Shown here: in pieces, positions 1,216 to 41,870 of the stretch
How positions within the stretch are numbered: the first letter of the stretch is position 1
Layout of the letters: each line of letters begins with the position of its first letter
NCBI GenBank assembly: GCA_948144175.1
Contig: CANXME010002463.1
Span: 727,001-791,000 of the forward strand
Length of the DNA: 64,000 bases
Source: Closterium sp. NIES-65
Lineage: Eukaryota; Streptophyta; Zygnematophyceae; Desmidiales; Closteriaceae
Direction of reading: 5' to 3'
Position numbers and translations under genes: made by a program
Notes under the pieces: model-generated
Database searches by the model: none
Told to the model about the DNA's origin: nothing
The model's input: only the letters and a program-made list of their open reading frames with translations

Positions 1216-3198
1216 GGCTGAGGGGAAGGAGGATCGGCAAGTGAGGTGGAGGGGAAGGATCATTGGCAGGTGTGACAGTATGTATGATCATGCGAGGTGG
1301 TTGGTCGGGGGACAAATTTTGAGACATCTCAAGAGGGTTGTATGGCAGTATGTATTCTCATGGGAGCTTTTTGAGACGTCTCAAAAACACCCTCCTTTCA
1401 CGTAAATATCTCAAAGAAGGTTGTATGGCAGTATGTATTATCATAGAAGCTGGTTGGACAGAGGACTTATGTCCTGAGTCGACACAAATCACTCTTTTTA
1501 CCCTCCCTTTGCTACCCCCCTTCCCGTCCCAGCTGCTCTTTCTTATGAACAGTGGCGGGTGCAAGTCATGCGGCATATACGAGAAGAGTGGATCGCAGAC
1601 AGCTCCCTTCTCCCCCTTACCTGCTCTTCCCCTCTGCCTCTGCCCTTACCTGCTCTATTTACCCTTCTTTTGCCGTCTCCCTCCCACATCCCAGCCGCTA
1701 TTTCAAATGGACAGTGGCGGGTGCAAGTCGTGTGGCATATATGAGAAGGGGTGGATCGTAGACAGCCCCTGCCTGCTCTTCTCCTCCTTACCTGGTCTTC
1801 CCCTCTGCCTCTGCCCATACCTGCTCTATTTCCCCTTCCTTTTCCCTCTCCCTCCCACATCCCAGCCGCTATTCCAAATGGACAGTGGCGGGTGCAAGTC
1901 ATGCGGCATGTACGAGAAGGGGTGGATAGCAGACAGCCCCTACCTGCTCTTCCCGCTCTGCGAATCCAACTTCTCCGCCCCCAAGGGCCACTCGCCCGCC
2001 CCCGGTGCCGCGGGCTTTGGGGAGCTGCTGCTGGCCGACCCAAAGGGCACTGTGGAGTTTGTGCTCTCATGTCCTGCTTGCGTGCGAGACCTGGAGATGA
2101 GCACAGGAGACGGTGAGTTGATTCCGTGTGTGTTGGGCTGAGTGGTTCTACGGGCTTTGGGGAGCTGCTGCTGGCGGACCCAAAAGGCACTTTGGAGTTT
2201 GTGCTCTCGTGCCCTGCTTGCGTGCGAGACCTGGAGATGAGCACAGGCGATGGTGAGATGAGAGGTTGAGTTGGGTCGAGCTGGGTTTAGCTGGGTTGAG
2301 CTGACTGGCGGGACCTAAACAGGACACTCTCGTTTGTGCTCTCGTGCCCTGCGTGTTTGAGACCCCTGGAGATGAGCACGGGAGACGGTGAGTTTAGTGG
2401 TTGAGCTGGGTTTGCTTGGGTTGAGCTGGGTTTGCTTGGATTGAGCTGGGTTTGCTTGGGTTGAGCTGGGTTTTGCTTGGGTTGAGCTGGGTTTACTTGG
2501 GTTGAGCTGGGTTGACTTGGTTGAGCTGGGTTGACTTGGTTGAGCTGTGTTGAGCTGAGTAACGAGTCCCAAGGGAAAAGTGGATCTGGGGCTTTCATGC
2601 CCTGCGTGTGTCCGGGACATGGGATGAGCACGGGAGATGGTGAGCTGGGTTAAAGTTCCTGGTTCTTTCCTGTCCAAGGGGGGGGAAGAGGGGGGGAGGG
2701 GGGGGGGGGTTGTTTCTGTTGGCAATACGGGCGTGATTGTAAGTGCCGATAGAGTACCTATTGGATTGCAAGGCCTAAAACGAGTCAGAGTACGTGCTAT
2801 CCTTGAGTTTCTGGGATGAAATGTGAACCTCAGTCCCACATGCTTTCCAACATATTCTCACCTCCTGCCTCTCTCCGTCCTCTCTCCTTCCTCCCTCCTT
2901 CCTCCCTCTTCCCCTGTGCCCACTTCCCTCCCTTCCAGTTCACACGGCACCTGCACCTCAAGGCTTGGGGGTGGTCGTCTGGGTGATAGCAGGCGTGGCA
3001 GTAATGGGTGTGCTTGTACTGCTCATCACATCTGTAGTGTACATCACTAAAGGCGGCGATCAGATTCTTGATGAATCGGAGCGTGACAAGTTTCTTGAAA
3101 TGGGGGCTACGTCATCAGAGGAGCCTCTTTACGCATTAGGAAGAGAGCCTCGCCTTGCATCCGATGTGCTTAAAGGTGATCCTGATGACTACCTATAG
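598..3198 (+). CDS. Plant-type single-pass transmembrane protein (DUF7953-like), 3' exons
   Basis: Three exons join in phase: 598-761, 1866-2112 and 2939-3198 (stop TAG). The first gives an ectodomain stretch with NVTLTSI and a GKEDWQ end. The second holds a Cys-rich GGCKSCGMYEKGW segment followed by further Cys residues (LCESNF, CPAC). The third gives one hydrophobic helix (VVVWVIAGVAVMGVLVLLI) and a roughly 50-residue acidic cytosolic tail ending DDYL. The order (ectodomain, CxxCG motif, one TM helix, short tail) matches an uncharacterised plant membrane family that I recall as DUF7953; its function is unknown. The signal-peptide exon must lie left of the window, so the gene is partial here. 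Exon phases are 0 and 1 and agree at both joins. Several partial copies of exons 1 and 2 flank the chosen ones, so other exon choices are possible. Confidence 0.7.
1317..1387. repeat. Two GAG-NNNN-CTC palindromes
   Basis: A perfect 20-bp palindrome lies at 1368-1387 (core GAGACGTCTC at 1373-1382). A decayed form lies at 1317-1334 (core GAGACATCTC). Both sit between two copies of TTGTATGGCAGTATGTATT (near 1337 and 1429) in the intron between exons 1 and 2. Confidence 0.85.
1526..2645 (+). repeat. Tandem partial copies of exon 2 of the transmembrane-protein gene
   Basis: The exon 2 start (acceptor CCCAG followed by a frame reading SGGCKSCG.YEK) occurs three times, near 1532, 1694 and 1866. The exon 2 end (frame ADPKGT...MSTGD with a GTGAG donor) occurs at about 2035-2112, 2170-2252 and 2330-2389, with a shorter last copy ending near 2640. 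The copies are 85-95% alike by eye. Between 2400 and 2560 there is also a short GAGCTGGGTTTGCTTGG-type minisatellite. Confidence 0.8.
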
Positions 3199-4379
3199 AG
3201 GGGGTGGACTGTGTTTGACACTGATGAGTAATCTTGGACATAGGATCGGACCCAGTGAGGTGTTTGGTCATGTAGGCCTATTTAAGAAGCCTTGCGGTAT
3301 CTTTATTCTAGGGTGCCCGGAGGTATGTTTATGGTAATTAAACTTGTGATCCAGCATGCGGCTAGGCTACGGTATAGCCCACTTCCATGTTAGTTTAGTT
3401 TGGGCTTGTGAGACAAGTCAGACATACAGGTAAGCTTTGTTTGGAATTGCCATTTCATTGCATATAGCGAATTGCATTCCCAACGCAAATCCTCACCCTT
3501 GAGGCCCTTGGCAATGTCGAGAGAACCTCGGGAATGTAGACTCTCCCTACCATACTAAGGGCGTGTCCAGTTCGTTCATTTCGGGATTTTTCGTGCCAGC
3601 ACACGTATCGAGGTTCAAAAATGACTACCGTACCTAGAAACGAATACATTGTGAGTGGAGTCCAACCATCCTGTAATTTCAGAAGCGCGGACACATCCCC
3701 CGCCACACGAATCAACAGTGCTCTGACAACGTTGAAAACGAGGTAACAGTTTCCCTCGTCAATCATAGCTTGAAAATTTTTGTGCAGGCGCAGGGGGCGC
3801 TGGCGAGTAGAGCGAACCACTGACGAAATCGTGCAAGCTATACAAGGGAAACGAGCTGTAGTGGCCAGGACGCGGTGCTGTACCCTTGTTCGCGTCCCTG
3901 CTGATTCCAGTAACGTGAGTCAGACGACTCTAGGTACGTGCATGGGGCGTGCCGTCTTGCGAACAGAAGCTGATTGTGTCCGCTGGACACGTTCGATAAA
4001 GGGTTACCACAAAAAATGTGGTAACTGAGGGGGTTTACGAGCAGTAAATGTACGAGCTGGACCCCCCCTAAAAACCACCTCGTTTCCAGCCACTTGCCTC
4101 CGTCAGTTCAGTTCCCCTGGTCCCACCCCACCTCCTCCCCTCCCGCCATTTATCCCAAATCGCATCCAACCCACTCCGCATCGACGGTTGCACATCGCTT
4201 CTTGTTGGCATCAACGGTCTCTAACCGTCGTCAGCCGCTTCCGACAAATTCCCGTCGTCGACTTGCCACTCTACTATCTCATCTCCTATCTCTAAATCTA
4301 CCGCCTCGCATCATCCGCGGCTTTCCGCATACGACGCTTGTGTGCCCTCGCTATACTCACACCTGTCATGCTTCACGCT
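3199..4379. other. Intergenic region with a possible decayed MITE
   Basis: This holds the 3' flank of the transmembrane gene and the 5' flank of the HMG-box gene. I see no convincing coding sequence. A possible decayed MITE spans 3559-3996: TAA stands at both edges, and the ends share CGTGTCCAG in inverted orientation, but the outermost bases do not match well. A short hairpin (GTTACCAC / GTGGTAAC) lies at about 4003-4025. Confidence 0.4.
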
Positions 4380-6042
4380 ATGGCGACTCCCCAAACCATT
4401 TTCCGTCTCGCTTTCTCCCGCGCATCGCCCGGATCTGCCTCCGAAATCGCCGGAACCGCGCTCCGATGCTTCGCCGCAAAGGCCGGAGGCGAGAAAGCGG
4501 CGTCAGCTGGAAAGGCGGGAGGCGAGAAGCCGAAGGCGACGCGGAAACCCAAGGATGACAGTCCTAAGCGACCTATGTCGGCGTATATAGTCTTTGCGAC
4601 TCATGAGCGACCTGTGCGTGTGGTCTTGTGTATTTTAAATTGACTCGCAACACACCCGACTGTTCTTAGCGACCCATGTCCCCTTAAATGGGCGTCACGA
4701 CTGAAAAGCGACCTGTGCGTGTGCTCTCTCGTGCGTTCTGGTTCAACTGCATCGCTGTTGTTTTCATCTAGATTGGTGTTGCTTTTGAGATTTCTCAAAA
4801 GTAACACCAATATAGCTGTGCGTGGCGCCGTCTCGTGCTTTCGGATTCGATTACACCGCTGTCGTTGTCATCTAGCTAGTTTTTGTCACCATGGTTGTGA
4901 TTGTTTCGGTTCGTCCACCTTTTCTATGGCGTTGTTTGCTGGTCTTTTTATCTTTTATCCCACAGATTTGACTCCTTGTCCATCTCTTCTATGGCTATCC
5001 GTTGATCTCCTGAATCAGCAATTCATCTGTTTTTCTCCCCATGAATTTCGTGCATCTATATATTTCCGGCATTCCTCTCTCCGAGTTCTCCTTCCAGTGC
5101 ATTTCCGCGAATTTCCCTTTTCGTTTGTGCGACAGAAAGTGATTCGCGAGAAGCCCGACATAGCTTTCGCCGATGTGGGCAGGGTCATTGGCGAACGGTG
5201 GCGAAACCTAGCAGGTAGGACATTGGCGAAAATGCATAAATTTTTCAGTCAGGTTATTGGCAAAAAGTGTCTGAATCTTACAGCTAGGTCCATTTCCCGA
5301 ACCAAGAATGTCCCAGTGCCTTCAGAAATTCAACATCACCTTTCTATTTCCTCGTTTCCCTTACCACCAGCCGTATGTCCATCCCCTCCCCCTTCCTCTG
5401 ACCTCACTATTGCTGCCGTACGCGTCCCACTCCCCATCATTTCTCCCACCTTCCTCTCCTCCCACCACCCCCCGTCCACCTCCCCGCTCCCTCTTTCTCC
5501 CCGCCTCCCCTCCCTCACCGCAAGCCCACCACCCTCTACCCACTTTTCTCGCCCATCATTTCCCTCCGTTTCCTGCAAGCTTTCTCAGAAAGACATGCAA
5601 AGTTCTCACCGTCCCTCTCCCCCCACGTCAACCCCTTCTTTCCCCCGTCCATTCCTCTCTTCTTCACACCTGGTGACAAGGTGAGCTGATAGCAAGCTTC
5701 GAGACGTCACAAAACAAGTTAAAGTGAAGGTGAAGAGCCAGCTTCTCAGAAGGACAGGACCTCATCATTTCCCGTCACCCTTCTGTCCTCTCTCCGTCAT
5801 TTTCCCCCGTGCAGCTGGTGACAAGGTGAAGTACGAGCAACTGTCTCAGAAGGACAGGACTAAGTGTTTTCCTCCTCGCCCTTCCCCCACTGTATCGCAC
5901 TCACCCCCTTGTGTACCCCTCCGTCCCATTCCCCCGTGCAGCTGGTGACAAGGTAAAGTACGAGCAACTGTCTCAGAAGGACAAGGTGCGCTATGCTGCT
6001 GAGCTGGAGGCCTACAACAAGGCTAAGGCTGCAGAGAAATAG
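4380..6042 (+). CDS. HMG-box protein (HMGB type), probably organelle-targeted
   Basis: Exons 4380-4613, 5136-5214 and 5942-6042 join in phases 0 and 1 and give 137 residues. The C-terminal half is one HMG box: KRPMSAYIVFATHE in exon 1, REKPDIAFADVGRVIGERWR in exon 2, and YEQLSQKDKVRYAAELEAY in exon 3. HMG boxes bend DNA and bind the minor groove with little sequence preference. The first 40 residues lack acidic residues near the start and carry FRLAFSR and RCFAAK, which looks like a mitochondrial or plastid presequence. A basic Lys/Pro linker follows and there is no acidic tail. An in-frame ATG at 4368 would add four residues. Introns use GTGCGT and GTAGGA donors. Two broken copies of the exon 3 start lie in the second intron. 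Confidence 0.8.
4773..4810. repeat. Long inverted repeat with the TTTTGAG core in HMG-box intron 1
   Basis: Arms of 18 bp, with one mismatch, surround the core GAGATTTCTC. The 3' arm reads TCTCAAAAGTAACACCAA. Diverged direct copies of one segment lie on either side (GTGCGTG...CATCGCTGTTGTTTTCATCTAG before, a similar run ending CGTTGTCATCTAG after). Confidence 0.8.
5578..5941 (+). repeat. Partial tandem copies of HMG-box exon 3
   Basis: The acceptor and first part of exon 3 (GCAG/CTGGTGACAAGGT, frame YEQLSQKD) occur three times: a poor copy in pieces at 5578-5684, a good copy at 5812-5864 that ends in GACAGGAC instead of continuing, and the true exon from 5942. A decayed GAGACGTC palindrome lies at about 5696-5714 between the first two. 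Confidence 0.75.
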
Positions 6043-6288
6043 ATTTTGTAAGGGAAGCGGTTTGAGTTGACTCAGAAAACATAGGAAGGAGGTTTTGGTG
6101 ACGACTGCTTGTGGGACACTCACCTTTTTTCATCTAATAAAATCCAGACTAGAAGATGGTAGCTCGCACAACTTGCAGGAGTTGCCAACTAACAATGCTG
6201 GTGGTTGGTCGGTTGGTTGGCTTGATGGTGTGTTATTTTCCCCGCTCACATCACAATCACAACATGTATTGTCCTTATGAATCCCGAA

Positions 6289-6438
6289 GGGTGTGTTCCT
6301 ACGGCCCCTTATCAGGCCAACCTCTTATCAAGCTCGTGTCAAAACACACTGAAAATTCCCTAAACCCGAAAACCCTCGCTACTTTCCCCAAGCAAGACTG
6401 ACAAAAGGTTTGCCTGATAAGAGCGTAGGAACGCGCCC
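6289..6438. mobile_element. Small MITE, 150 bp
   Basis: The ends are inverted copies: GGGTGTGTTCCTACG on the left and CGTAGGAACGCGCCC on the right, and the similarity extends inward to CTTATCAGGC. Flanking trinucleotides are GAA and TAA, close to the TWA target duplication of PIF/Harbinger elements but not identical. There is no coding content. Confidence 0.55.
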
Positions 6439-6504
6439 TAAGCATGAACCAACAGTGTAGAAACAAAGCCCTCACAACATTTTACCGTATTCAGATGAGA
6501 GTGG

Positions 6505-6945
6505 TGTTGGGCTGAAAATAGCCCTTAGGATCTTTGCAGAGGAGAACTCTTGGGTAGAAACTTGTAATAGCGGAAGCGTTTTAATGAGGATTGTGAACCG
6601 ACCTTGCACTGGTGTGTGAGAGCAAAGTAGATTGAATTAAACAAGCAAGTACAAGGATTTATATAAGAGTACAGGGAATACGAATAGATAGATAGATAAC
6701 TGTATTGCTGTTGCGGTTCGATATAGTGCGACTCGGGCAACTGCTCTGTAACGAGTCAGTTGTGTGTCCTTAACTGTCGCGCTGTAATTGTCGAGTCAAA
6801 GGTCAGCGACCTTTGACTTTCTCGTAACCTCCAGGCGGTTACCCTAACCTCCGAGGTTGACTCGATGCTTCGATTGGGACTGCTTCGCTTGGTGCCTTGG
6901 ATTTTGATACGACAGAAGCGCACTTAGGACTTATTGTTTCCAACA
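6505..6945 (-). repeat. 3' LTR of the Ty1/copia element
   Basis: Same 441-bp sequence with one visible difference. The gag-pol stop codon falls inside its first 22 bases. Confidence 0.95.
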
Positions 6946-9900
6946 CTCCCCTTCGCTTCTGGAGTGTCGCTACTGGTGACGTGGCCTTGTCCAGTCAGCA
7001 TCATGCAGTATTCGAACTTCTGCTTTCCGAGTTTCTTGGTCAAGTAATCGGCTGCCATCTCGGATGTTGGACAGTATGACAGATCGAGTTTCCCTTTTTC
7101 TATCTCGTCCTTCACGAAGAAATAGCGCAGGGCGATGTGTTTCGTCCTGTTTGCGAAGCCGTTTTTGTTGGCGATGCGAATTGCCGACTGGTTGTCGCAG
7201 AACACGGTGAAGCTGGGTAACTCGGCTAGCTTCGCTTCTTCCAGTAGTTCACGAAGGTAAAGTCCCTCCTTGGTGGCTGAGCAGAGTGCAATATATTCTG
7301 CTTCTGCTGAAGAAAGTGCGATTAACTCCTGCTTGCTCGACTGCCAGGAGATAGGACCGATAGGCTCAAGGCGGTAGACATAGCCGGTGCGTGAGCGCCT
7401 GTTGTCGGTGTCGCCGGCGTGATCGGCGTCGACGTAGCCGATTAGCTTGGTCGGTGTAGTCACGTTTTTGTGATAAGTTAGTCCGATCGTCGCGGTGCTG
7501 ACGAAGTAGTGGAGAGCACGATCGAGTTCCGCCAGATGCTCTGCTTCAGGTCTCTTGAGATAGGTAGCGAGCTGACTCGCGGAGTAGGATAGGTCAGGAC
7601 GGCATGTGACTGCTGCGAAAAGAAGGCATCCAAGCTTCTTCTGATAGTCGCGTATGCCGGTGGGTTTAAGTAGAGTAGATTGCCCCTTTTCGGTTCCTGA
7701 CGCGTAGCGGTAAGGCGTGGAGATGGCGCTTGGTGTGAGGCGAAAGCGTTTCGCGATAGTGTCGGCGTACTTCTCGGCGCTTAGGTAGATTGCGTTTTCT
7801 TCCTCACGGATGTTGAGCCCGAGGTATTGCGTAACCGTAGAAGAGACCGTGAGCGTGAGGTCTTTCTGGAGCTCCCCTTCGAACCACGTGGCGATGTCGT
7901 CGGTTGACCCAATGTAGAGGAGATCGTCCACATAGACGATTAGTAGGACGTAATCGCCTCCTTTTGTGAGGCGATACATGCCCTGGTCATGCGGGAGTTG
8001 TTTGAAGCCGATGCGGATGAGGCGGGCGTGTAGGTACTGCTGCCACAGTCGCGGTGCCTGCTTGATCCCATAGAGTGATTTGAGTAGTTGACACACTCGG
8101 TTGGGTTCGCCGTGGGAGCCGTGCGGGAGTTCAACGAAGATTTCTGCATCCACAGGTGCGTAGAGAAATGCGTTCGCAACGTCGATTTGTCGCAATTTCT
8201 TTTTCTTCATGGCGGCGACGGCGATGAGAATTCGGAGTGAGGTGTGGCGACTGACCGGAGCGAAGGTTTCGGTGTAATCTCTTCCGTGCTCCTGGTCGAA
8301 GCCACGTACGACCCAGCGGGCTTTGAATTTGTCGATGGTGCCATCAGCTTTCGTCTTCACACGGAAGACCCATTTCCCGGTAAGAATGTTTTTATTTTGA
8401 GTTACGCCGATGGGAACAATTTTCCAGGTGTTGCGCTCCTCCAGTGCCTTCACCTCTTTGTCCATAGCTTCACGCCATTTCTCCCTGTGTTCCCCCCCCA
8501 GAGCCTGCTGAACCGTCGCAGGCTCCTTAGGGATGCCGGCGCCGTGGACCGCGGTGACGAGACCAAGGATTTGCAGCCCAGTCTGTGAGTATCGAGGGAG
8601 TTCTGGATCCTCGGGATAAGCTGCTTCGTCTCCCGTTTCTGGGTCGGGCATGAAATTTGGCCCTACCCTTTCTGCTTCATTGGTGTTGACTGTCAGAGGT
8701 GTTACGTAACCATCGTCGGCGAAACGGTAGAAGATTTCGGCGTTGTTACTGTCGCGAGGATTATCCTCATCCATGGGCACGTCGACGGAGCAGTATGGGA
8801 GAGGTCCGGCTTCTTCCGATGCGTTGTCGACGTTCTGTTCATCCCAGTCTGCTTCGTCCGCTGCTGACGCGAAGGCTCGGTCACCACGAAAACCACTGGT
8901 GAGGTCCCGATTCTCGTGCAAGTTGGCGAGGTACGTCTGAAGGGTGAGTATTTCGTAGAAGATCACGTCACGTGCTGCTACTGTTTCCTTTGTGTGGACG
9001 TCGAAGATTCTCCATGCGTTGTAATTTTTCTCGATGCCGAGGTGTAGTCCCCACTGTGCCCGTTGCGAAAATCTTCCCGCTCGTGCTTCTGGGGGTCTGT
9101 ACTGTACCATGCACCCGAAAACTCGTAACATTTTCGTGCTGCCCTGCTTCCCTGTCCACAGCAGATGCGGTGATGCGTTGTTTGGGAGTGACGACGACGA
9201 CAACAAGTTGTGCAGCATGACAGCGTGGTCCATTGCTGCTGGCCACTGGTGGTTGGGTAGCCGCATGCCACGTAGCAGTTTGCGCATGCTGTTCTGCAGG
9301 GTCCTGTTCAGTCGTTCTGCAACACCTTGCTGCTGATGTGCGTAGGGAAGGGAGAGGAGTTGCTTGATCCCCCTTTCCGCCAAGAACTGCTTGAAGCGCT
9401 GACAGGTGTACTCGCCACCTCCGTCTGACTGGAAATTTTTCAGTTGTGTTCCAGACTCTCTCTCTGCTATCGGTAGCCAGGCGGCGAATGCTGCGAGCGC
9501 CATGTCGCGGCTGGGTAGGTTGCGATGCCAGACGTATCGAGTGGCGGCGTCGATGAAGGTGATGGTGTAGTTGTAGTTGACTTGTCCTGGTTCGCGATTG
9601 TAGAGGATGTCGCTGTAGACTTTTTCGAGTGGTGCGTACGCTGGAGCGCTCGGGTTGTGATGTGAAGCAAACGGTCGATGAGGTAAGTCAGCTTCGGGAC
9701 ATATAAGGCAAGTCCCTCGTGCCTTCTGGAGTTCTCTGCCATCGGGTAGAAGTAGAGAGTCTTTGTCAAGGACTCCTGCTCTTATCGTGTTATTCAAAAC
9801 CGTGTTGCTTGGATGTCCTGTGCGTGCGTGCCAGATCTCTTCAGAGGCGCGGTGTCCGGGTGAGCGCTGATATGCGTCGGAGTTGGAGTAGAAGCTGGCG

Positions 9901-12083
9901 ACGAGGTTGGCGCTTCGGTGGACTTCACGTTGAGTCGGATTCAGCTGTTGCGCGGGTGTTGGTGGTGCTTCGTCGACTGTGACTGGTGTCGTTGTTCCTG
10001 CTGCTGCTGATGTTGTTGCTGCTGCCGATGTTGTTGCTGCTGCTTCTTGTTGAATCGTTGCTGCCGATGTTGTTGCTGCTGCCGATGTTGTCGCTGCTGC
10101 CGATGTTGTCCCTGCTGCTTCTTGTTGAATCGTTGCTAACGCTCTTGTTCGTTCTGCTTCAGGGATAGTGTGGGAGTACCAGAAACCTCCCGGGCTGAAG
10201 TCGGGGTCGAGATCCGGAGGGTGTGTCCAATCAGCAAAGTTCACAATGGCGTCGCTGTCTGCAGTGCCGAGGTCTGGAGCGAAGTCGAGGACGAAGACGT
10301 TGTTCTTCAGCACTGCTTTCCCGATGTAGAGACCGCCTCTCCCGTGGTAAAGCTTGAACTCCTGGGTCGTGCTGTCGGCTTCCAGATGAATTCCTTTCGC
10401 CATCAACTGGCTAACGCTCAGTAAGTTGTAGCCGAGTCCTTCAGCGATGAGTACCTTAGACATGTGCAGTATGACATTTGTTTCTCTTGACTGAAGTTGT
10501 ACCACTCCTTGTCTTCGTGTGCGCAGGTTTTGGTTGTTGGCAACCGTGATGATCACTTCCCGTTGGAGTCGATGTTCGCGTTGTACGAAACGCCCGGACG
10601 AGCACATGTGTTGCCCGCAGCAACTGTCCAAGAACCAGGTGTCTTGGCCGGACGGTTCGCTTTGAGCGATAGCAGCGTAAGTCGGATTTGGATGGAGTGA
10701 TTCGCGACGAGGCGTCCTGTTGTCGAGCTCCTCTTCCGGTGAGTAATGGGGTGGTGACTCTGTTATGCAAGAGTCGGTTATCTTGACCATGCAGTTGACT
10801 ATATGTCTTGCTCCTTGTGCAGGTTGTCCAGTTGAGGTCGTTGAAGCTTGAATCGTGGTTGTCGAGCTTGCTTGTGTCGAAGCAACTTGGGTGCTTGAAG
10901 GCCGCAGTTGTCGCTGTGGTGTTGTCTGTCGAGACGGGCAGTGCGTGCGTGGGTGTCCTGATGTCTTGCAGATGTGACAAAATGGAGGTACTAGCTTCGG
11001 CTGCTGCTGTCGATTGTTGTAGTAGTTGTGTCGTCGCTGAGTATGGAAAGCAAACTCCGGTGCTAATGTCCTTTTCTTGTGTCTTTCTTCTTGCAGGTCC
11101 ATATCCTGCTGCTCGGCGTGAATTTCTGCGCAAAGTGCCGCTTCGGAGATCCTCCCGTGTGCTCGAAGAATTGCTTTGGTGGCGCGCCACTGAGGACCGA
11201 GGCCGCCGATGACGACTGTTACGAAGGCGTCTTCAGAGATTGACCCTCCACATCGAAGAAGCTTGTCGCGCAATTCGCGACATCGGCTGATATACGCCAA
11301 CCCTTTTTCTCCTGGTTTCATTTCAACTGTTGTCAGCTGCGCCATTAACCTGCTCTGGTTTACACTGTCTGTTGCCTGGTACAGGTTCTTCAGATGGCCG
11401 TACGCGAGTTCCGCCGAGTTGCCGAAGTTCCGGTAAGAGCGAATGTTCTGCTGCTGGGTTGGTGTGATGTTTCTCAGTAGAATAGTATACGCCATCATGG
11501 ATTGATACGTATACTGCTGCTTTTCATACTGTGTCCCGTTTGCTGGATACTGCAGGGATCCGTCGAAGAAGCCGAGTATCTGCGCGCCCTCCATCATCAA
11601 CTCGAATTCAAAGGACCAGGTAAAGAAGTCCTTTCCGTCGAAAGGTCTTGACGTCTGTAGTTTCAGAACATGCGCGAACTGCGACTGTACTTGTAAGGCA
11701 TCCATTGGTTTGTCTTGCGCAGGTGGAGGTTGAGGCAGGAAGCTGATCGACCCGCGTTCGTACGGGGCGAAGGTGGGTTGCTGCTGTTGATTCCCTCGCG
11801 CGTATGACGACCCGTCAAGGCTCATGGGTGTCGCTCCGTTGTTGCTGTTGTGTGTCTGTGCAGGTCCCGACTGCTGGTGTTGCTCGTAGAAGGACATGAA
11901 GGAGAAAAATTTCTCCATCATGCTCTGGTCGAAGTCAGGAGGATGGTTCGTGGGGGTCTCGGTTGACGTTCCCCTTGGTCTTGCTGCCGTGCCTTCCTCT
12001 GTCTGCAGGCCAGAGGCTGGCGGTGGAGTAGGAGTAGTGCCCGAGGAGCCATTAGGGGAGCTCCTTTCCTTGTTTGTTGCCAT
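6924..12083 (-). CDS. Ty1/copia Gag-Pol polyprotein, 1719 aa
   Basis: Domain order is copia-type. Gag occupies about residues 1-365, followed by a zinc knuckle CHICKTSGHPRTHC at 369-382. The protease motif is WFLDSCCGQHM at 483-493, where the expected D-S/T-G is D-S-C. Integrase has an H-H-C-C finger (HARTGH...CLIC) and the D, D, E catalytic residues in VYSDI, FQSDGGGEY and GVAERLNRT. Reverse transcriptase has LIVYVDDLLYIGS. RNase H has YVDADHAGD, SSAEAEYIAL and FCDNQSAIRIA. An Ala/Thr-rich tandem (QQEAAATTSAAATTSAA) separates protease from integrase. There is no frameshift or internal stop, so the element could be active unless the protease change is disabling. The frame runs through the polypurine tract into the 3' LTR. 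Confidence 0.96.
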   Translation of the reverse strand: MATNKERSSPNGSSGTTPTPPPASGLQTEEGTAARPRGTSTETPTNHPPDFDQSMMEKFFSFMSFYEQHQQSGPAQTHNSNNGATPMSLDGSSYARGNQQQQPTFAPYERGSISFLPQPPPAQDKPMDALQVQSQFAHVLKLQTSRPFDGKDFFTWSFEFELMMEGAQILGFFDGSLQYPANGTQYEKQQYTYQSMMAYTILLRNITPTQQQNIRSYRNFGNSAELAYGHLKNLYQATDSVNQSRLMAQLTTVEMKPGEKGLAYISRCRELRDKLLRCGGSISEDAFVTVVIGGLGPQWRATKAILRAHGRISEAALCAEIHAEQQDMDLQEERHKKRTLAPEFAFHTQRRHNYYNNRQQQPKLVPPFCHICKTSGHPRTHCPSRQTTPQRQLRPSSTQVASTQASSTTTIQASTTSTGQPAQGARHIVNCMVKITDSCITESPPHYSPEEELDNRTPRRESLHPNPTYAAIAQSEPSGQDTWFLDSCCGQHMCSSGRFVQREHRLQREVIITVANNQNLRTRRQGVVQLQSRETNVILHMSKVLIAEGLGYNLLSVSQLMAKGIHLEADSTTQEFKLYHGRGGLYIGKAVLKNNVFVLDFAPDLGTADSDAIVNFADWTHPPDLDPDFSPGGFWYSHTIPEAERTRALATIQQEAAGTTSAAATTSAAATTSAATIQQEAAATTSAAATTSAAAGTTTPVTVDEAPPTPAQQLNPTQREVHRSANLVASFYSNSDAYQRSPGHRASEEIWHARTGHPSNTVLNNTIRAGVLDKDSLLLPDGRELQKARGTCLICPEADLPHRPFASHHNPSAPAYAPLEKVYSDILYNREPGQVNYNYTITFIDAATRYVWHRNLPSRDMALAAFAAWLPIAERESGTQLKNFQSDGGGEYTCQRFKQFLAERGIKQLLSLPYAHQQQGVAERLNRTLQNSMRKLLRGMRLPNHQWPAAMDHAVMLHNLLSSSSLPNNASPHLLWTGKQGSTKMLRVFGCMVQYRPPEARAGRFSQRAQWGLHLGIEKNYNAWRIFDVHTKETVAARDVIFYEILTLQTYLANLHENRDLTSGFRGDRAFASAADEADWDEQNVDNASEEAGPLPYCSVDVPMDEDNPRDSNNAEIFYRFADDGYVTPLTVNTNEAERVGPNFMPDPETGDEAAYPEDPELPRYSQTGLQILGLVTAVHGAGIPKEPATVQQALGGEHREKWREAMDKEVKALEERNTWKIVPIGVTQNKNILTGKWVFRVKTKADGTIDKFKARWVVRGFDQEHGRDYTETFAPVSRHTSLRILIAVAAMKKKKLRQIDVANAFLYAPVDAEIFVELPHGSHGEPNRVCQLLKSLYGIKQAPRLWQQYLHARLIRIGFKQLPHDQGMYRLTKGGDYVLLIVYVDDLLYIGSTDDIATWFEGELQKDLTLTVSSTVTQYLGLNIREEENAIYLSAEKYADTIAKRFRLTPSAISTPYRYASGTEKGQSTLLKPTGIRDYQKKLGCLLFAAVTCRPDLSYSASQLATYLKRPEAEHLAELDRALHYFVSTATIGLTYHKNVTTPTKLIGYVDADHAGDTDNRRSRTGYVYRLEPIGPISWQSSKQELIALSSAEAEYIALCSATKEGLYLRELLEEAKLAELPSFTVFCDNQSAIRIANKNGFANRTKHIALRYFFVKDEIEKGKLDLSYCPTSEMAADYLTKKLGKQKFEYCMMLTGQGHVTSSDTPEAKGSVGNNKS

Positions 12084-12134
12084 GTCTTGTAATGATAAAA
12101 AAGTTAGAGTTTTCCCCTGTCAGCTCTCATACCA

Positions 12135-31177: not shown

Positions 31178-31402
31178 GGTAGTTGTGCGAATGATCTAAA
31201 ACCAGTTCCTATGGCTAGGGAAATGGATAAACTAGAGAAATATGTGAAGAAATAGGGCTAGAAAAAACATATAGACTATTAAACGGTGACATGTTGCGTA
31301 CAGGCATATCCTTGCACAGATTCAGGCCATCGAATGCACAAACAAGCGTCACGTGTTGCGTAGTTGTGCGAATGATCTCAAACCAGTTCCTATGGCTAGG
31401 GA

Positions 31403-33091: not shown

Positions 33092-34414
33092 AGGGAAATG
33101 GATAAACTAGTGAATTGTGTGAAGAAATAGGGCTAAAAAAAACATATAGACGATTAAACGGTGACATGTTGCGTACTGGCCTATCCTTATTCAGGATACA
33201 GATTCAGGCCATCGAATGCACAAACAAGCGTCACGTGCTGCGTAGTTGTGCGAATGATCTCAAACCAGTTCCTATGGCTAGGGAAATGGATAAACTAGAG
33301 AACTCTATGAAGAAATTGTCAGAACATCATAGCTTATTTGTGTAGGCTATAGTGGGGTATCCCATGGGGGGTACAACCCAGTTAGGGTTTCCTATTTGTA
33401 CTCACTTCGTTCATAGTCATTTCATTCTCGTTCTAACTTTCTCGTGGTATCAGAGCAGGTTCCCCCGTGGGAACTGTGCTTAGGGCCCACCACATCGAAC
33501 TTTTTTTCTGCCCGGAGCGCGCTACGGGCCCTTTCTCTTACTTTTTCGATCTGCCCTAACGGCCCCTAGACGCCCGCGTGCCGCCCTTAGACGCCCACGC
33601 GCCGCCCGTCCTGGCCCCTAGACGCCCGCGCGCCGCCCTGAGACGCTCGCGCGCCGCCCGTCCCGGCCCCTAGACACCCGCGCGCCGCCCGTCCAGGCCC
33701 CACGCCGCCCGCGCGCTGCCCTTCGAGCCCGCGCGCCGCCCTTCCAGGCCCCACGCCGCCCGCTCGCTGCCCTTCGAACCCGCGCGCCGCCCGTCCAGGC
33801 CCCACGCCGCCCGCGCGCTGCCCTTCGAGCCCGCGCGCCGCGCGTCCAGGCCCCACGCTGCCCGCGCGCTGCCCTTAGAGCCCGCGAGCCACCCGTCTCG
33901 GCCCCCCCCTAGACGCCCGTGCGCTGCCCGCCAGGCCCCTCGACGCCGTGCGCCGCCCGATCCGGCCCCACGCCACCCGTGCGCCACCCGTCCCGGCCGC
34001 GCACACCCGTCCCGGCCCCTCGTCGCCCGTGCGTAGCCCGTCCCAGCCCCGCTCCCAGCCGCCCGTGCGTCACCCGTCCCGGCCCCGCTCCCAGCCGCCC
34101 GTGTGCCACCCGTCCCAGCCCCGCTCCCACCCGCCCGTGCGCTACCCGTCCCGGCCCAGCTCTCGGCCACCCGTGCACCACCCGTCCCTGCCGTAAGCCA
34201 CCGGCCCGAGCCGCCTGCGCAGCAGTGGAGCCGAGCCGCCAGAGCCGCCTGTGCCGCTAACCGCCTGAGCCGCCCGAGCCGCCCGAGCCGCCCGAGGAGC
34301 CGAGCCGCTGGTGCCGAGGTGCTGCTGTTGCTGCTGGGCCGGCCGAGCTGCCGTGTTTGCTGTGCTGCTGTGCTGCCCGACCCGTCCTGTCTGGTGAGAC
34401 CGCCGGCTGCAGTC

Positions 34415-35615
34415 ATGGCTACCCCTAGTGTCCTAGCTTTTGACGCTGAGGGTCGTGCCATTGACTTTGAGGTCTGGGTCGACGACCTGCAGCTGTTCTT
34501 GCAGTGCGATAGGGTAGACGACCTTTCTCTCTTTGACCTTACCTCTGACGCCGTCCTTGCCCCTGCTGCTGATGCTGACCCCACTGTTCGCTCCAAGTGG
34601 GCCACACGCGATGCTGCTGCACGTCTTGCTGTGCGTCGCCACCTGCCTACCGCTGAGCGTGCACACTTTAGTCAGTACAAGAGTGCCCAGACCTTGTACG
34701 ACGCTGTAGTTGCGCGCTACTCCTCCCCTGCCACTGCTGCACTGAGCCGCCTCATGCTCCCCTTCCTCTTCCCTGACCTCGCCGCCTTTCCCACTGTCGC
34801 TGATCTCATTACGCACCTCCGCACTAGTGACACCCGCTACCGCGCTGCGCTTCCTGCTGACTTCTGCGCCAAGAACCCCCCCCCCCATGTACATCACTCT
34901 CTACTTTCTAGTCACTCGCCTCCCTGACTCCCTTCGTGTAGTCCGGGACCACTTCCTCGCGGTCTGTCCCACCACTCTCACAGTCGACAGCCTCGAGAAG
35001 GCCCTCTTAGCGGCGGAGAAGAGCATCGTCGCTGTAGGAGCCTCTCGAGGTGACCCCCGCGCCCCCATCTTTGAGGGGTGTTCTCCTTCCCCTCTCTTGC
35101 CCTCTGTCGCCTCTGCCGCTGCGGTCGACCTCGTTGGTCTTGAGTCGGTCGGTGCGGCGTCTGCCCCTAGCGGGAGACGCCGCTCTGGCAAGGGCAAGGG
35201 GGGCAAGGGAGCGGGTGGGGCCAGCGGGGGCGGTGGAGGTGGAGGTGGAGGCGGCGGAGGGAGTGGGGGTGGCGGTGGAGGTGGTGGCGGGGGTGGGGGT
35301 GCTAGTGGCGGCAGTGGAGGCGGGGGTGGCAGCGGCGGTGGCGGTGGGAGCGGAGGTGGCGGAGGCGACGGCGGTGGAGGCGGCGGCGGTGGAGGCGGAG
35401 GCGGGGGTGGCGGTGGTGGAGGTGGTCGGAGTGGCGCTTCGCAGCGGAGCAGCACTGGGGGTGGTCAGCGCCAGCAGCAGCAGCAACAGCAGCAGCGTTC
35501 TCGCGACGTCCCCACCCCTCTGCAGCTCCGTGAGTGGTACACGCAGCGTCAGCGCGGTGGGGGTTTTGGTCCCTACACCTACGTTCTCCGCATTGGCGAC
35601 CGCGCTGGAGAGTAG
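34415..35615 (+). pseudogene. Gag of copia copy A, frameshifted
   Basis: Starts MATPSVLAFDAEGRAIDFEV. A C run near 34876-34886 has one C more than copy B and shifts frame. The second half holds a poly-Gly/Ser tract, a Gln run, and LREWYTQRQRGGGFGP. A TAG at 35613 replaces the Gln before the CGGTHTAHRC knuckle. Confidence 0.9.
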
Positions 35616-38600
35616 TGTGGGGGTACCCACACCGCCCACCGCTGCTTTGGCCGCCTGACGGACGCTTGGCGCCAGCAGTTCCCGGAGGTCGCGGAGATCC
35701 CCCGCTGGGGAGAGCTGTCTAGGGCTGGTGTCGCTATCTTTGATCTTGATTTTGATGCTATCCTTGCTGCCATGTATGCTGTGCCCATTAGTGATAAGGG
35801 TGACTGTTACCGGTGTTTCCCGCTCGACCCGGGCATTGGTACTACTGCTCTAGGTGCTTGTGAGGCTACTGCTCTAGGTGCCAGTGCGTCTGTGCTCTCA
35901 GGTGCTGGTGAGGCTGCTCTCTCAGGTACTAGTGAGTCTGCGCTCTAAGGTACTGCGTTGGCTTTGGCCTCCCACACCTTCACACTTGACTCTGGAGCGT
36001 CTCGCTCCTTCTTTCGGGACCGCACCACACTTACGCCGCTTAGTCGGCCGGTTGCGGTGTCCCTGGCTGACCCCTCTGGGGGTCCTGTCCTGTCTCGCTT
36101 CTCCACAGTCCTCCCGTGTCCGGCGGCTCCCTCTGGCACCCTGTCTGGTCTCTACCTCCCCTCGTTCTCTACGAACTTGGTGAGTGGTGCTGACCTACAG
36201 GATGCGGGAGTCCACCAGTTCACCCCTGCTCGTCAGCGAGTGCCGCATTGCACAGAGGCTAGCACAGGTCGTCACCTGGCTACGTTTACACGTCAGCCAG
36301 GGTCGAGCCTGTACACACTGACCACTGCTTCTCCTCCAGTTCCTGAGTCTGGTAGGGTCCCTTCGTCAGGTCAGGTGTTTGCTGCAGCGTCCAGGTCTGG
36401 TCCTGAGTCTGCCCCCTGTTCGTGTCGTCGCCTGTCTCACGAGACTCTCCTCTAGCACCACCGCCTGGGTCACCCCTCTCTGCTTCGGCTCAGAGGCATG
36501 GCCTCCCGTCTTCTTGTGTCTGGTCTTCCCCGGTCCCTCCCTCCCCTTCCTCAGGGCCCTGGCCCTGCCTGTGTCCCCTGTGTCGAGGGGCGCCAGCGTG
36601 CTGCCCCTCACTCCTCCCGGTTTCCTCCGACAGAGGCTCCGTTGCAGACGCTTCAGATGGACGTGTGGGGCCCTGCCCGCGTCCGTGGACTCGGTCACGA
36701 GCGCTACTTCCTGTTGGTGGTTGACGACTACTCGCGTTACACCACAGTCTTCCCCTTGAGCAGCAAGGGTGATGTCACTGAGGTGCTAATCGACTGGATC
36801 CGCGCAGCTCGTCTCCAGCTCAGGCAGAGCTTTGGCTCGGACTTTCCTGTGTTGCGTCTGCACTCGGACAGAGGCGGAGAGTTCTCCTCTGGCCTTCTGC
36901 GTGCCTACTGTCGTGCGCGAGGCATCCGTCAGACCTTCACGCTTCCGGACTCATCACAGCAAAATGGGATTGCAGAGCGCCGCATTGGCATGGTCATGGA
37001 CGTCGCTCGTACGTCTATGATGCATGCGGCTGCCCCCCATTTTCTGTGGCCGTTTGCGGTCAGGTACGCGGCGCATCAGATCAACCTCCACCCCGAGGGT
37101 CTCCAGGCCGGAGACCTCCCCAGCCCTGCTGTGGACGGAGAAGGTTGGCGATGCGTCGGCGTTCCGGGTCTGGGGATCTCGGGCGTTTGTCCGCGACTTG
37201 TCTGCGGACAAGCTGTCCCCTCGCGCTGCTCCCTGCGTCTTCCTGGGGTTCCCCCCCGACGCCCCTAGGTGGCAGTTCTACCACCCCACCTCTCGCCGTG
37301 TTCTGTCCTCCCAGGACGTCACGTTCGACGAGTCGGTACCCTACTACCGCCTCTTCCCCTACCGCACTCCGTCCCTCCCCCCACCCCCGCTCTTCTTGGT
37401 ACCAGGTCCCCCCCCGGTAGACCCCCTTCCCCCTCAGGGTCCTGCCCCTTCAAGTGTGTCCCAGGTAGATGCGGTCGAGCCTGTCGCGGTCACTGGTGAC
37501 TCTGGTGCTGCTGTGGGTGCTGAGCCTAGGGGTGCTGTGCCTGGGGGTGCTGTGCCTGGGGGTGCTGAGCCTGGGGGTGCGGAGCTTGGGGGTGCGCAGT
37601 CTGGGGGTGCTGAGCCTGGGGGTGCTGAGCCTGGGGGTACTGAGACTGGAGGTGCTACGCCTGGAGGTGCTTTGCCTGGGGGTCCTGAGCCTAGAGGTTC
37701 TTCGCCTGGAGGTTCTCTGGGTGCTTCGTCTCGCCGAGAGCCACTCTCCCCACAGGAGCTGCGTGAGTGGTTTGCCCGCCGCTGGAGGCGTGCTGCTGGT
37801 GCTGGAGGTTCTTCGGCTGCTGAGGGTGCTGCTGCCGCGCGGCCCGGAGGTGCTCGTACTAGGAGTACTTGAGCTGCTGGGCCTGCGGGTTCTACTGGAG
37901 CTGGTGCTGCTGAGCGTGTTGGCGCTGAGACTACCGCTGGCGGTCCGACTGGCAGTGCCCCTGGTGCTGCTGGAGGTTCAAGGGCTGCTGGAGGTGCTGC
38001 AGGGGGTTCTGGAGCTACTGGAGGTGCTGTTGGAGGTGCTGCTGGAGCGGGTACTCCTGTTGGGGGTACTGGTGCTATCCCTGCTGTTTCTGGCGTCGCC
38101 ACGCGGCCCCGATCATACTTCGTTCCACTCCTGCAGCTGGTTCTTGGTCTTACACCTTCTCCTGGTCCTCCTCCTCCTCCCTTAGAGGGTCCACAGCCTG
38201 TCCAATCACAGTCACAGCTACAGCCTGCCTCCCCTTTGCCTGATCCTTCTCCCTACGCTAGTCCGACTGGAGGTCTTACTGAGCGTCGTGAGCCTGCGTC
38301 TCGTCCTGCGTCGCCTGTTCGTGCTGCGCGCACTAGTGGTCGCGGCTCGCGTCAGCGTCCTCCTCCTGTCCCTGGCACGCACCGGATGTCTCTGCGTCCG
38401 TCTACTGCTCCTCTGCGTGCCCCTTTGCCTTTTCCTTTTGCTTCCTCTCTTCCTGCTCTTGCCGACCCGGAGTCGGACTCTCTTCGTGCTGCCAGTCCTA
38501 CTGTCACGCGTCTCCTGGCTACTGCCGTCACTAACCCTTCTTTCGAGTCTTCTGCTGCGTCTGCCCTTGTTACTGAGCTCGTCGACTTTGCTGCGCGCTG

Positions 38601-40241
38601 TCGTCTAGACTACGCTGCTAGTCTTGTCGCTGAGTCTGAGTCTGCCTGTCCTCCGTCCGTCGGGGGTGAGTGTGCCCTCGGCACGGACGTCCTTGAGGAC
38701 AGGCAGGAGGAGTTCCAGTGTCTGGCCGCCGCTTCACCTGATCTCGCGTCTGTACTGCTCACCCCTGAGGGAGACCCGGATGCACTAGACATCCCGACTC
38801 CGCGCTCTTACGCAGAGGCGATAGAGGGTCCCTACTCCTCTCAGTGGCAGGCAGCTATGGATGCAGAGATGGCTTCCTCGAAGTCCACAGGCACCTACGT
38901 TGACGCTGTTCCCCCTCATGGGGCGAACATCGTCAGTAGCATGTGGATCTTCAGGGTGAAGCGGCCGCCGGGTTCTCCGCCTGTTTTCAAGGCGCTTTAC
39001 GTGGCTCGTGGCTTCAGTCAGCAGCAGGGAGTTGACTACTTTCAGACCTTCTCCCCCACCCCGAAGATGACCACTCTTCGGGTACTGCTGCACGTTGCTG
39101 CTCACCGTGACTACGAGCTGCACTCTCTCGACTTCAGCACTGCTTTCTTGCAGGGCAGCCTGCACGAGGAGATCTGGCTGCGTCGCCCACCTGGCTTCAC
39201 TGGGTCTTTCCCTCCTGGTACCCAGTGGAGTCTCCAGCGTCCAGTCTACGGTCTCCGCCAGGCGCCACGTGAGTGGCACGACACACTGAGGACTACGCTG
39301 GCGGCACTTGGGTTTGCTCCTTCCACTGCAGACCCGTCGCTGTTTCTGCGCACCGACACCTCTCTGCCACCGTTCTACATCCTCGTGTACGTCGACGACT
39401 TGGTCTTTGCCACAGCTGACACTGCTGGACTCGCCTACGTGAAGTCCGAGCTGCAGAAGAGACACACGTGCACTGACCTGGGTGAACTGCGCAGCTACCT
39501 TGGCTTGCAGATCACCCGGGACAGAGCACGCCGCACCATTACCCTGACTCAGTCACACATGGTGCAGCAGGTCCTTCAGCGCTTCGGCTTCACGTACTCC
39601 TCGCCTCAGGCCCCTCCTCTGCCTACTCGCCACTCGCTCTCAGCTCTGCCTTCGGATGAGTCCGTAGAGTCGAGTGGCCCGTACCCAGAGCTTGTTGGCT
39701 GCCTCATGTACCTGATGACCTGCACTCGACCTGACCTTGCATACCCTCTTAGCATTCTTGCACGCTATGTTGCTCCTGGGAGACACCGACCAGAGCACAT
39801 GGCTGCAGCGAAGAGGGTGTTGCGCTACTTGTGCAGTACGTTGGGCATGGGGCTAGTGCTTGGAGGGCGCAGTCCAGTGGTCCTCACTGGGCACGCGGAC
39901 GCTTCTTGGGCTGACGACCAGGCTACGCAGCGGTCGTCACAGGGTTACACCTTCAGCCTTGGTTCCGGCTCTGTTTCGTGGCGGGCTACCCGCTCGTCTT
40001 CTGTTCTCGGCTCCAGTTGTGAGGCTGAGATCTACGCCGGGGCTATGGCTGCCCAGGAGCTTCGCTGGCTCACCTACCTGCTGACCGACCTTGGAGAGCC
40101 GCCTCGTTCTCCTCCAGTCCTGTACGTAGACAACAAGGCCATGCTGGCCTTGTGTCGAGAGCAGCGACTGGAGCACAGGACAAAGCACATTGCTCTCCGC
40201 TACTTTCTTGCTCGTGAGCTACAGCAGCGTGGACAGTTGCT
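35616..40241 (+). pseudogene. Pol of copia copy A, multiply broken
   Basis: In order: protease (HTFTLDSGASRSFF), integrase (VVDDYSRYT, LHSDRGGEF, QNGIAERRIG), reverse transcriptase (ILVYVDDLVFA) and RNase H (HADASWADD, YVDNKAMLAL). Stops at 35946, 36453 and near 37870 and an extra C near 37092 break it; copy B has sense codons there. Reverse transcriptase and RNase H remain open from 38236. Confidence 0.93.
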
Positions 40242-41110
40242 GCAGGCCATCAAACGCACAAACAAGCATCATGTGCTGCGTATTTGTGCGAATGATCTCA
40301 AACCAGTTCCTGTGGCTATAGAAATGGATGAAAGAGAGAACTGTGTGAAGAAATAGGGCTAAAAAAAACATATAGACGATTAAACGGTGACATGTTGCGT
40401 ACTGGCCTATCCTTGCACAGATTCAGGCCATCAAATGCACAAACAAGTGTCACGTGTTGCGTAGTTGTGCGAATGATCTCAAACCAGTTCCTATGGCTAG
40501 GAAAAAGGATAAAATAGAGAACTGTGTGAAGAAATAGGGTTACAACCAGTATATTTAGACGTTGAAACGGTGAAGTGTTGCGTACTGGCCTATCCTTGCA
40601 CAGATTCAGGCCATCAAGCGCACAAACAAGCGTCACGTGCTGCGTATTATTCGAATGATCTCAAACCAGTTCCTATGGCTAGGGAAATAGATGAACTAGA
40701 GAACTGTGTGAAGAAATAGGGCTAAAAAAAACATATTGACGATTAAACAATGACATGTTGCGTACTAGCCTATCCTTGCAATGTTTCATGCCATCGAACG
40801 CACAAACAAGGGTCACGTGCAACGTAGTTGTGCGAATGAGCCCAAACAAATTCCTGTGGCAAGGTAATTGATTGAACTACCTGAATCTGTGAAGAAATGG
40901 TGCTAAAAAAAATCACCAAACGATGAAACGGTGACATGTTGCGTAATGGCCTATCCTTGCACAGTTTCAGCCTATCGAACGAACAAACAAGCGTCACGTG
41001 CTGCGTAGTTGTGCGAATTAGGTCAAACCAGTTCCCATGGCAAGGTAATTGTTTGAAATATCTGAATGTGTAAAGAAATGGTGGTAACAAAATCAACCAA
41101 ACCCTTTCCA
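40242..41110. repeat. 183-bp satellite array
   Basis: About five units, drifting in sequence toward the right. Period measured from CACGTGTTGC at 40451 to CACGTGCTGC at 40634. Confidence 0.88.
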
Positions 41111-41478
41111 TCCATTAAGTTAAATTATCAAATATACAATGTTTATCAACACTTTACAGTATATGAGAGTATTGCTATTTGGTTGTTTGTGATTCAAAAA
41201 AAAAAAAGCAATGACGGAGTATGCACAAAGCATATTTTGTTTGAAGTAACCCAATGGATAAATTTCTTTATTGATCAGTATAAACGATGGCACGTCAAAG
41301 CTATTTCCTTCACGGGTGAAACACTCTATAGCAGAATGCGACAAAGGAGAGATGGAGGTGCCCATAGTGCTGAACCTCCGGAACCCAACCTCCGAACTTG
41401 GAAGCAAGATTCGGGAATGACGCGCGGTTTTCAAACCTCCGCGACATTCCCAAGCCGACAGTCCCAAGCCACACCCCA
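40990..41478 (+). repeat. Left copy of a direct repeat that flanks the transposon nest
   Basis: About 480 bp is roughly 95% alike with 63515-64000, where the window ends. It covers the last satellite unit and a unique stretch with CAAAGCATATTTTGTTTGAA. Confidence 0.9.
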
Positions 41479-41572
41479 GCATCACCCTCGCGTGATTCCC
41501 AACCCCTCCGAAAACTGGTACATGCGAAGAACATTCTGGAAACATGAAATCCCCTCCCCCCTGTTTTGCGGT

Positions 41573-41870
41573 GACCTTCAATCTATGGTGTGCCTCTTGA
41601 GACACCTTCAATCTATGGGGTGCCTATTGAGACACCTTCAATCTATGGGGTGCCTATTGAGACACCTTCAAAACTTCAATCGTGACCTGTTGAGTCGACT
41701 CAAAAGTCCGTCACGGCGTCCAGCTCACTTTGTCATCCTTCACGGCCAGCGCGCGTTTCGCCAATGGAACATCATCGCCTATCATCTTATTCGATTCGTA
41801 CGGTGTCTCGGATAATCACACGTCGCCTGAACAACCATCGCCGCCCATCGCCATCCTAGCTTTGTTGAAC
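41573..41870 (-). pseudogene. Gene relic resembling JmjC exon 1, with palindrome and 30-bp repeats
   Basis: On the minus strand a frame reads GDDVPLAKRALAVKDDKV and then, shifted, LDAVTDF. This echoes exon 1 of the JmjC gene (GDGGVLGARTVLAV..IKVDAMTEP). It is followed by palindrome core GAGTCGACTC (41692-41701) and three copies of a 30-bp unit, CCTTCAATCTATGGGGTGCC plus ten bases. The likeness is partial and could be chance. Confidence 0.4.

Follow-up and report, generated by a model that had tools for sequence, protein, structure and literature searches.

Short palindromes with self-complementary centres, mostly between two copies of target DNA, in the nuclear genome of Closterium sp. NIES-65

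Palindromes of the window and their abundance

A dispersed family of short palindromes occurs in a 64,000-nucleotide stretch of Closterium sp. NIES-65 DNA (assembly GCA_948144175.1, contig CANXME010002463.1, positions 727,001 to 791,000), here called the window. The core of the family is TTTTGAGNNNNCTCAAAA. Tens of thousands of such short self-complementary pieces, mostly lying between two copies of target DNA, are present in the nuclear genome. The setting is nuclear, with a genome of 874 Mb and copia elements in the window itself. An earlier note, made from the letters of the window, had described a dispersed family with the self-complementary centres TCGA, ACGT, GCGC and AATT. This description holds: the centre is self-complementary in 126 of the 137 distinct cores found in all loci examined (TCGA 77, ACGT 21, GCGC 21 and AATT 7, in a set enriched for TCGA by the choice of loci). 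The flanking direct repeats around the palindromes had been missed.

All twelve perfect cores listed in the earlier note, whose positions mark GAG, four bases inside the core, consist of GAG, a self-complementary tetramer and CTC. Complete TTTT and AAAA flanks are found at only eight of them (cores starting at 1369, 14394, 21191, 21773, 22089, 22183, 23764 and 24154); the flanks are incomplete at 13059, 13145, 13302 and 41692. An exact match to TTTTGAGNNNNCTCAAAA at 4783, the ninth in the window, has ATTT as its centre, which is non-palindromic. Palindromes of 34 bp had been placed at 14386 and 21183; the length at 21183 was reproduced, and the other palindrome measures 36 bp and starts at 14385. 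The members in the window and their flanking repeats are as follows (entries without a strand are unoriented).

1317 to 1334: imperfect member (ACAT centre), flanked by the first and second copies of a local repeat
1326 to 1368, plus strand: left flanking direct repeat of the 1369 palindrome; right copy 1408 to 1451, 89% identity
1369 to 1386: palindrome core with centre ACGT; right arm like the ACGT-type family arm
4713 to 4771, plus strand: left flanking direct repeat of the 4783 palindrome; right copy 4816 to 4875, 78% identity
4772 to 4815: hairpin insert with core 4783 to 4800 (centre ATTT)
12918 to 13222, plus strand: tandem array U-P-U-P-U-P-U with members 12973 (GTGC), 13059 and 13145 (both GCGC)
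13298 to 13315: palindrome CTTTGAGACGTCTCAAAG, filling the gap between repeats 13243 to 13297 and 13332 to 13386
14326 to 14367, plus strand: left flanking direct repeat of the 14385 palindrome; right copy 14423 to 14464, 90% identity
14385 to 14420: 36-bp perfect palindrome with centre TCGA; the preceding sequence repeats a left-arm 12-mer
20642 to 20689: 48-bp hairpin insert, TTTTGAGACCGTCTCAAAA at 20658, between 12-bp repeats 20630 to 20641 and 20690 to 20701
20951 to 21040, plus strand: empty counterpart of the 21191 site; related sequence with the 18-mer region once and no palindrome
21170 to 21187, plus strand: left 18-bp flanking direct repeat of the AATT palindrome at 21183; right copy 21217 to 21234
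21188 to 21216: 29-bp insert of the 34-bp palindrome 21183 to 21216, centre AATT; the insert ends in 5 bases that mirror those closing the left repeat
21772 to 21791: palindrome with centre TCGA, between repeats 21687 to 21761 and 21793 to 21867, 96% identity
21951 to 21990: imperfect member with centre GCTC, between 18-bp repeats 21933 to 21950 and 21991 to 22008
22046 to 22260, plus strand: 94-bp tandem array with palindromes 22089 and 22183, centre ACGT
23760 to 23785: 26-bp palindrome with centre AATT, within a larger tandem duplication
24090 to 24153, plus strand: left 64-bp flanking direct repeat of the 24154 insert; right copy 24172 to 24235, about 92% identity
24154 to 24171: 18-bp insert consisting of the exact core, centre GCGC
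41690 to 41703: member TTGAGTCGACTCAA, flanking repeat not detected; related copy at L133:217

The core pattern is far more abundant than its control. The 874-Mb assembly (2,400 contigs) contains 30,327 matches to TTTTGAGNNNNCTCAAAA and 4 to the reversed pattern, so that the outcome named in advance as speaking against the family, a genome count no higher than in shuffled sequence, did not occur. The centre is TCGA in 13,080 of these 30,327 matches. Within the window, 9 exact matches were found and none in 60 dinucleotide shuffles; palindromes of at least 18 bp averaged 0.3 in the same shuffles and never exceeded 2, compared with 9 observed.

Tiled counts refer to the window and 20 further stretches, L121-L140, 248 kb in all; eight of these (L121-L128) were picked at listed sites, and L129-L140 were not. 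In the 248 kb, all 42 perfect palindromes of at least 20 bp belong to the TTTTGAGNNNNCTCAAAA family, and 46 of 51 cores have a self-complementary centre; the proportion is 11 of 13 in the window and the 12 stretches not picked for sites. Palindromes bounded by GAG and CTC have one of the four named centres in 68 cases and one of the other twelve self-complementary tetramers in 3. Additional loci were chosen for AGGT arms (L141-L160 and L171-L180), iterated units (L201-L205 and L218), a non-G base after AGGTGACTTTTGAGTC (L213-L217), similarity to L144 (L219-L226) or a full arm (L227-L234). A restriction or adapter artefact is ruled out by inference, since divergent copies, subfamilies, tandem arrays and duplications occur across many contigs.

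The neighbouring sequence of the window is rich in repeats and retroelements. An uninterrupted open reading frame (ORF) on the minus strand at 6924-12083 encodes a copia-type polyprotein of 1719 amino acids (gag, integrase and reverse transcriptase), with up to 90% identity in the aligned parts to proteins of Closterium sp. NIES-53, -54 and -65. Two copia-like stretches about 10 kb apart, at about 34744-40356 and at 44708-48134, have repeated pieces in common; the ORF at 38236-40356 contains a reverse transcriptase domain and that at 45723-48134 an integrase domain. Direct repeats of 145 bp with 99% identity occupy 55604-55748 and 55839-55983, near a motif that we take to resemble an initiator-tRNA primer binding site. 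Within an ORF, a 78-bp unit is repeated 25 times at about 98% identity (14516-16476), in an array that starts about 100 bp downstream of the 14385 palindrome. A 150-bp repeat (3.6 copies, 681-1226 and 1338-2141) resembles a repeated exon with a splice donor and lies upstream of an ORF matching DUF7953. Six-frame Pfam matches at 12.6-25 kb were set aside because of stop codons.

Duplication of the target at palindrome sites

Flanking direct repeats are present at 29 of the 38 tiled palindrome clusters, compared with 258 of 1500 random positions in an ungapped test. A stricter gapped test gave 23 of 38 clusters, 727 of 6000 random positions and 662 of 3000 neighbouring positions; the high background is due to the richness of the genome in tandem repeats. 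For the same reason, split repeats are met at about 17% of random positions, a frequency that, together with the strict conservation of the core, lends something to the view that the palindrome is a fixed site, fragile or bound by a protein, and that local tandem duplications formed around it later. This view, already disfavoured, is very improbable: the palindrome sits in the gap between the repeat copies, and a paired locus and related loci lack the palindrome and the duplication together.

A scan of 19 places in the window placed the best direct repeat across the palindrome at 13, with a gap of at most 85 bp. Among the remaining six, the 18-bp repeat of 21191 is visible only when shorter flanks are compared, and 1317 and 12973 lie within arrays; the scan detected no flanking repeat at 41692 or at the doubtful places 6064 and 20198. 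The palindromes at 41692 and L133:217, on the same contig, are related, lie in similar flanks and lack a flanking duplication. Over all loci, repeats were found at 54 of the 98 sites examined. Removal of array duplicates left 51, with a median length of 44 bp and a range of 18-137 bp, and dropping nine array-like sites left 42 with lengths of 18-84 bp. The edges of the duplications at these 42 sites revealed no strong target motif, only a mild excess of A just outside.

The cleanest site, L136:6686, consists of an exact 18-bp core between two identical 19-mers. The most direct comparison is between L223 and L225, which are 97% identical over 2656 aligned bases: L223 contains a 24-bp repeat, a 23-bp palindrome insert and the same 24-bp repeat, and L225 contains the 24-mer once. 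Single-copy counterparts were also found for 21191 (at 20951-21040 of the window), for L121:9307 (within L121:9741-9930) and for L136:7731, the last more diverged and less certain; a fourth comparison, for L125:3661, was uninformative. Palindrome and duplication are thus present together or absent together. Four other near-identical locus pairs have palindromes in common. The pairs L219/L220, L221/L222, L224/L226 and L202/L203, each more than 99% identical, are on different contigs, which suggests that haplotypes were retained in the assembly or that segments were duplicated recently. Insertion of the palindromes together with duplication of the target is well supported and, in our judgement, highly probable.

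Arms, halves and junctions

The sequence outward from the core differs between subfamilies. The TCGA-type arm reads GTCACCTCGTTACNATGGCACACGACA; the arms of the ACGT, GCGC and AATT types, each derived from few copies, read roughly NNNACCTCNTTACACGTGG, CACACCTCACTACACGCGC and TCAACCTCAAACAAAATGGG. Near the core, a variable position in one arm usually has its mirror in the other. The full TCGA-type arm occurs at 40+39 places in the genome, and at 33 of these it continues into a further core-like stretch. The remaining 46, with 26 distinct continuations, have only the next base, A, in common before they diverge, and the end of the arm was therefore placed at GACA; the longest TCGA-type arms end at ...GGCACACGACA. 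Full arm and core are repeated in tandem with a period of about 47 bp at C718:418845-419254 and C1968:156768-156894.

Copies span tens of bases, and most are shorter than the full arm would allow and are truncated on both sides at differing points, in agreement with the proposal that copies were not duplicated whole. At 31 sites not picked for arms, the lengths of the two arms show no positive correlation (rho -0.26, p 0.15). The earlier note had also proposed that long arms run into local unique sequence and that each palindrome was made in place. The former does not stand for two of the three such arms, which recur in family members elsewhere, that of 14385 at L169 and that of 20646 at L159, L223 and L225; the 21183 arm, in which the final 5 bases mirror those closing the left flanking repeat, was not found again in the other loci examined. 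The latter survives in the sense that most copies carry a duplication of their own target, and fails where it took the arm extensions for local sequence. Fold-back copying as the sole source of the arms was rejected, as the longer arm of L144, L179 and L136:7731 continues with family sequence. Hybrid arms were dropped as proof of two templates; mismatches per pair, judged by eye, are about 0.07 for variable triplets and about 0.04 for centres. A three-base arm mismatch in L177 is explained by target microhomology.

The common GACA end of the longest arms is what retroposition of a short hairpin RNA by a long interspersed nuclear element (LINE) would give, the 3' end being fixed at ...GGCACACGACA and the 5' end truncated. 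Seven of the eight full-arm loci have 0-7 nt on the other side (one of the seven is cut one base into the core) and lie between flanking repeats, and the 52-nt strand is predicted to form a hairpin of 14 bp that leaves a 3' tail (-20.8 kcal/mol). Target duplications of variable length are usual for LINEs and for short interspersed nuclear elements (SINEs), although those of LINEs are typically shorter than the median of 44 bp seen here. Most copies lack the GACA end and are cut on both sides, and the loop is itself self-complementary, which an RNA hairpin does not need. Retroposition is an unlikely source of the family.

Isolated halves are nearly absent. Counted genome-wide for the TCGA type, AGGTGACTTTTGAGTCGACTCAAAA occurs at 1417+1421 places, compared with 126+132 for AGGTGACTTTTGAGTC followed by a non-G base. 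This base is mostly A among the matches listed, which is consistent with decay of the central CpG, and all five retrieved non-G examples (L213-L217) are whole palindromes with an altered centre. In the loci examined, AGGTGACTTTTGAG is followed by a whole core in 82 cases, an altered core in 16, an iterated unit in 22 and something else in one, which adjoins an iterated array in L205. A wider search with other arm words added as exceptions a resembling stretch at 17385 of the window, a GCGC-like tandem array in L123 and a copy cut by a contig end in L196. Where one arm is cut into the core, the opposite side retains the full AAAA in 19 of 22 cases. There is therefore no sign of a longer element bounded by the halves, and the conserved, self-complementary centre is the part that is kept.

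This anatomy bears on two element classes. Remnants of a transposon with terminal inverted repeats (TIR), or of a miniature inverted-repeat transposable element (MITE), with nothing left between the two terminal repeats, would account for the inverted-repeat anatomy and the subfamilies. The target duplication is not constant (18-137 bp at the 51 clean sites), the conserved part is the centre and not the ends, and separated halves are rare, as counted for the TCGA type, so that such an origin is extremely improbable. Helitrons have fixed ends and make no target duplication; they were rejected given the duplications at palindrome sites.

A few copies have iterated half units on one side and a single mirrored unit on the other (L201, L202/L203, L204, L218 and L126:7026). 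Each iterated unit ends at the tip TTTTGAGTCGA, and the next restarts mostly at GGTGAC. Over the loci examined, some of which were retrieved for this trait, 214 tips are mirrored, 30 are followed by a restart just after GAGTCGA and 8 by something else. Such restarts would be expected if a short template were used repeatedly up to a common border.

Arm ends and target share more bases than expected. Microhomology averages 1.02 nt at 65 junctions, compared with 0.44 when arm lengths are permuted (none of 2000 permutations as high) and 0.65 at random positions with ambiguity (P 0.002). The mean is 1.21 for the TCGA type (39 junctions) and 1.33 for the AATT type (6 junctions).

Possible origin and comparison with known systems

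Two target copies with filler between them are the footprint that long complementary 3' overhangs would leave once filled in and joined, a route described for plain tandem duplications (PMC8355091). The family could have arisen at breaks with long staggered ends, where the target would be duplicated on fill-in and joined around the filler. Each 3' end would serve as primer on one short template, pairing with it over few bases and starting at a variable point. For the TCGA type, the copied strand would read ...GTAACGAGGTGACTTTTGAGTCGA, and the template border would be (U)CGACUCAAAAGUCACCUCG.... Copying would stop at the same template end, leaving each 3' tail ending in ...TTTTGAG plus a self-complementary tetramer. 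Since the tips are self-complementary, two tails could pair through them, and fill-in and ligation would then yield U-arm-centre-arm'-U. The TCGA, ACGT, GCGC and AATT subfamilies would represent different templates, and later unequal exchange between U copies would produce the (U-P)n arrays seen at some sites. The template, the polymerase and the pairing of tails are the parts that we infer.

The two-tail step would account for the constant centre, the self-complementary tetramers, the truncation on both sides, the lack of halves and the restarts. Staggered-break insertion with a templated two-tail filler is the best explanation of the whole, and we give it about an even chance of being correct. 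The two-tail step itself is preferred and unproven, with the balance slightly against it. The more specific proposal, that both 3' ends are capped from one template by a reverse transcriptase or polymerase and that the self-complementary caps join, leaving about 30,000 copies of a heritable scar, is tentative, and we consider it somewhat more likely to be wrong than right.

Several observations weigh against this explanation. The analysis found neither a template RNA nor a source locus or enzyme, and Rfam gave no match in 5 sources. Nine of the 38 tiled clusters show no duplication, and an empty locus can equally come from deletion between two repeats. The excess of microhomology comes from the TCGA and AATT types; it is slight in the ACGT type (0.73, 11 junctions) and not evident in the GCGC type (0.33, 9 junctions). 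L233 begins inside an arm, without its first core. Iterated units are rare, with the exact double unit at 10+11 places genome-wide, and they could have arisen by slippage. Several ACGT, GCGC and AATT copies have two long arms. For the TCGA type, two-long-arm copies (exact form AGGTGACTTTTGAGTCGACTCAAAAGTCACCT) are estimated at roughly 370, from 28 of the first 50 of 665 places judged by eye, compared with 154 expected if the arms were independent (1417 x 1421 / 13,080), an apparent excess that decay and tandem arrays may confound.

This excess fits the capture of ready-made double-stranded palindromic fragments, excised or episomal, with trimmed ends, as filler at staggered breaks. Capture would also explain the arrangement U-P-U, the two-sided truncation, the modest microhomology and the mirrored arm variants. 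Random trimming should often cross the centre, yet isolated halves are nearly absent, and the iterated units restarting at the tip are left unexplained. We regard fragment capture, like retroposition of a hairpin RNA, as improbable.

If staggered-break insertion is correct, the nuclear genome of a member of the algal class closest to land plants harbors a palindromic insertion family of tens of thousands of copies. The family would record where staggered breaks occurred and how long their overhangs were, and a natural distribution of overhang lengths would be readable from the genome. It would also be one source of the short duplications and minisatellites common in the Closterium genome, and it may reveal a new templated end-joining reaction. 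On a more modest reading, it is still an abundant repeat, unmentioned under these words in the Closterium genome-size paper examined, whose main text contains no word starting with "palindrom" or "inverted". In agreement with the earlier note, which knew of no described element of this form, the open-licence literature searched yielded no counterpart of the family or of its insertion class. No known class tested fits the palindromes.

The nearest likenesses are partial. Yeast mitochondrial GC clusters (e.g., GC42) are likewise short mobile palindromes, described in the passages cited as having a putative target duplication and AG or ACT flanks (PMC4478555). GC clusters are organellar with a duplication of 2-3 bases, whereas the Closterium family is nuclear, numbers tens of thousands of copies and has a constant centre, cut ends and duplications of about 18-137 bp. 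The repetitive hairpin elements of sponge mitochondrial DNA and the palindromic repeats of Fusarium mitochondrial DNA are also dispersed but organellar, a likeness of description, as given in the parts of the papers cited, and not of sequence (PMC2800124, PMC7218506). CST and Pol alpha-primase fill in breaks with complementary 3' overhangs, giving small tandem duplications at the junction such as are also met here; the abstract of that work mentions no fixed palindrome between the copies, as is present in Closterium (PMC8355091).

In mammals, interstitial telomeric and telomerase-RNA insertions likewise place short templated pieces at repaired breaks, and some of them show target duplication and microhomology, according to the sections cited (PMC2246262). 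Those insertions consist of telomeric or telomerase-RNA (TERC) sequence and have a duplication in a minority of cases, whereas the Closterium insertions are palindromic and non-telomeric, with duplication usual. The palindrome arms are not TTTAGGG-like, and the terminal 900 bp at each of 20 contig ends contain neither TTTAGGG arrays nor palindromes, so that these ends are uninformative on a telomere link. Neither GC clusters nor telomerase insertions match the Closterium family, which differs from them in location, copy number, length of the duplication and an anatomy in which the centre is conserved.

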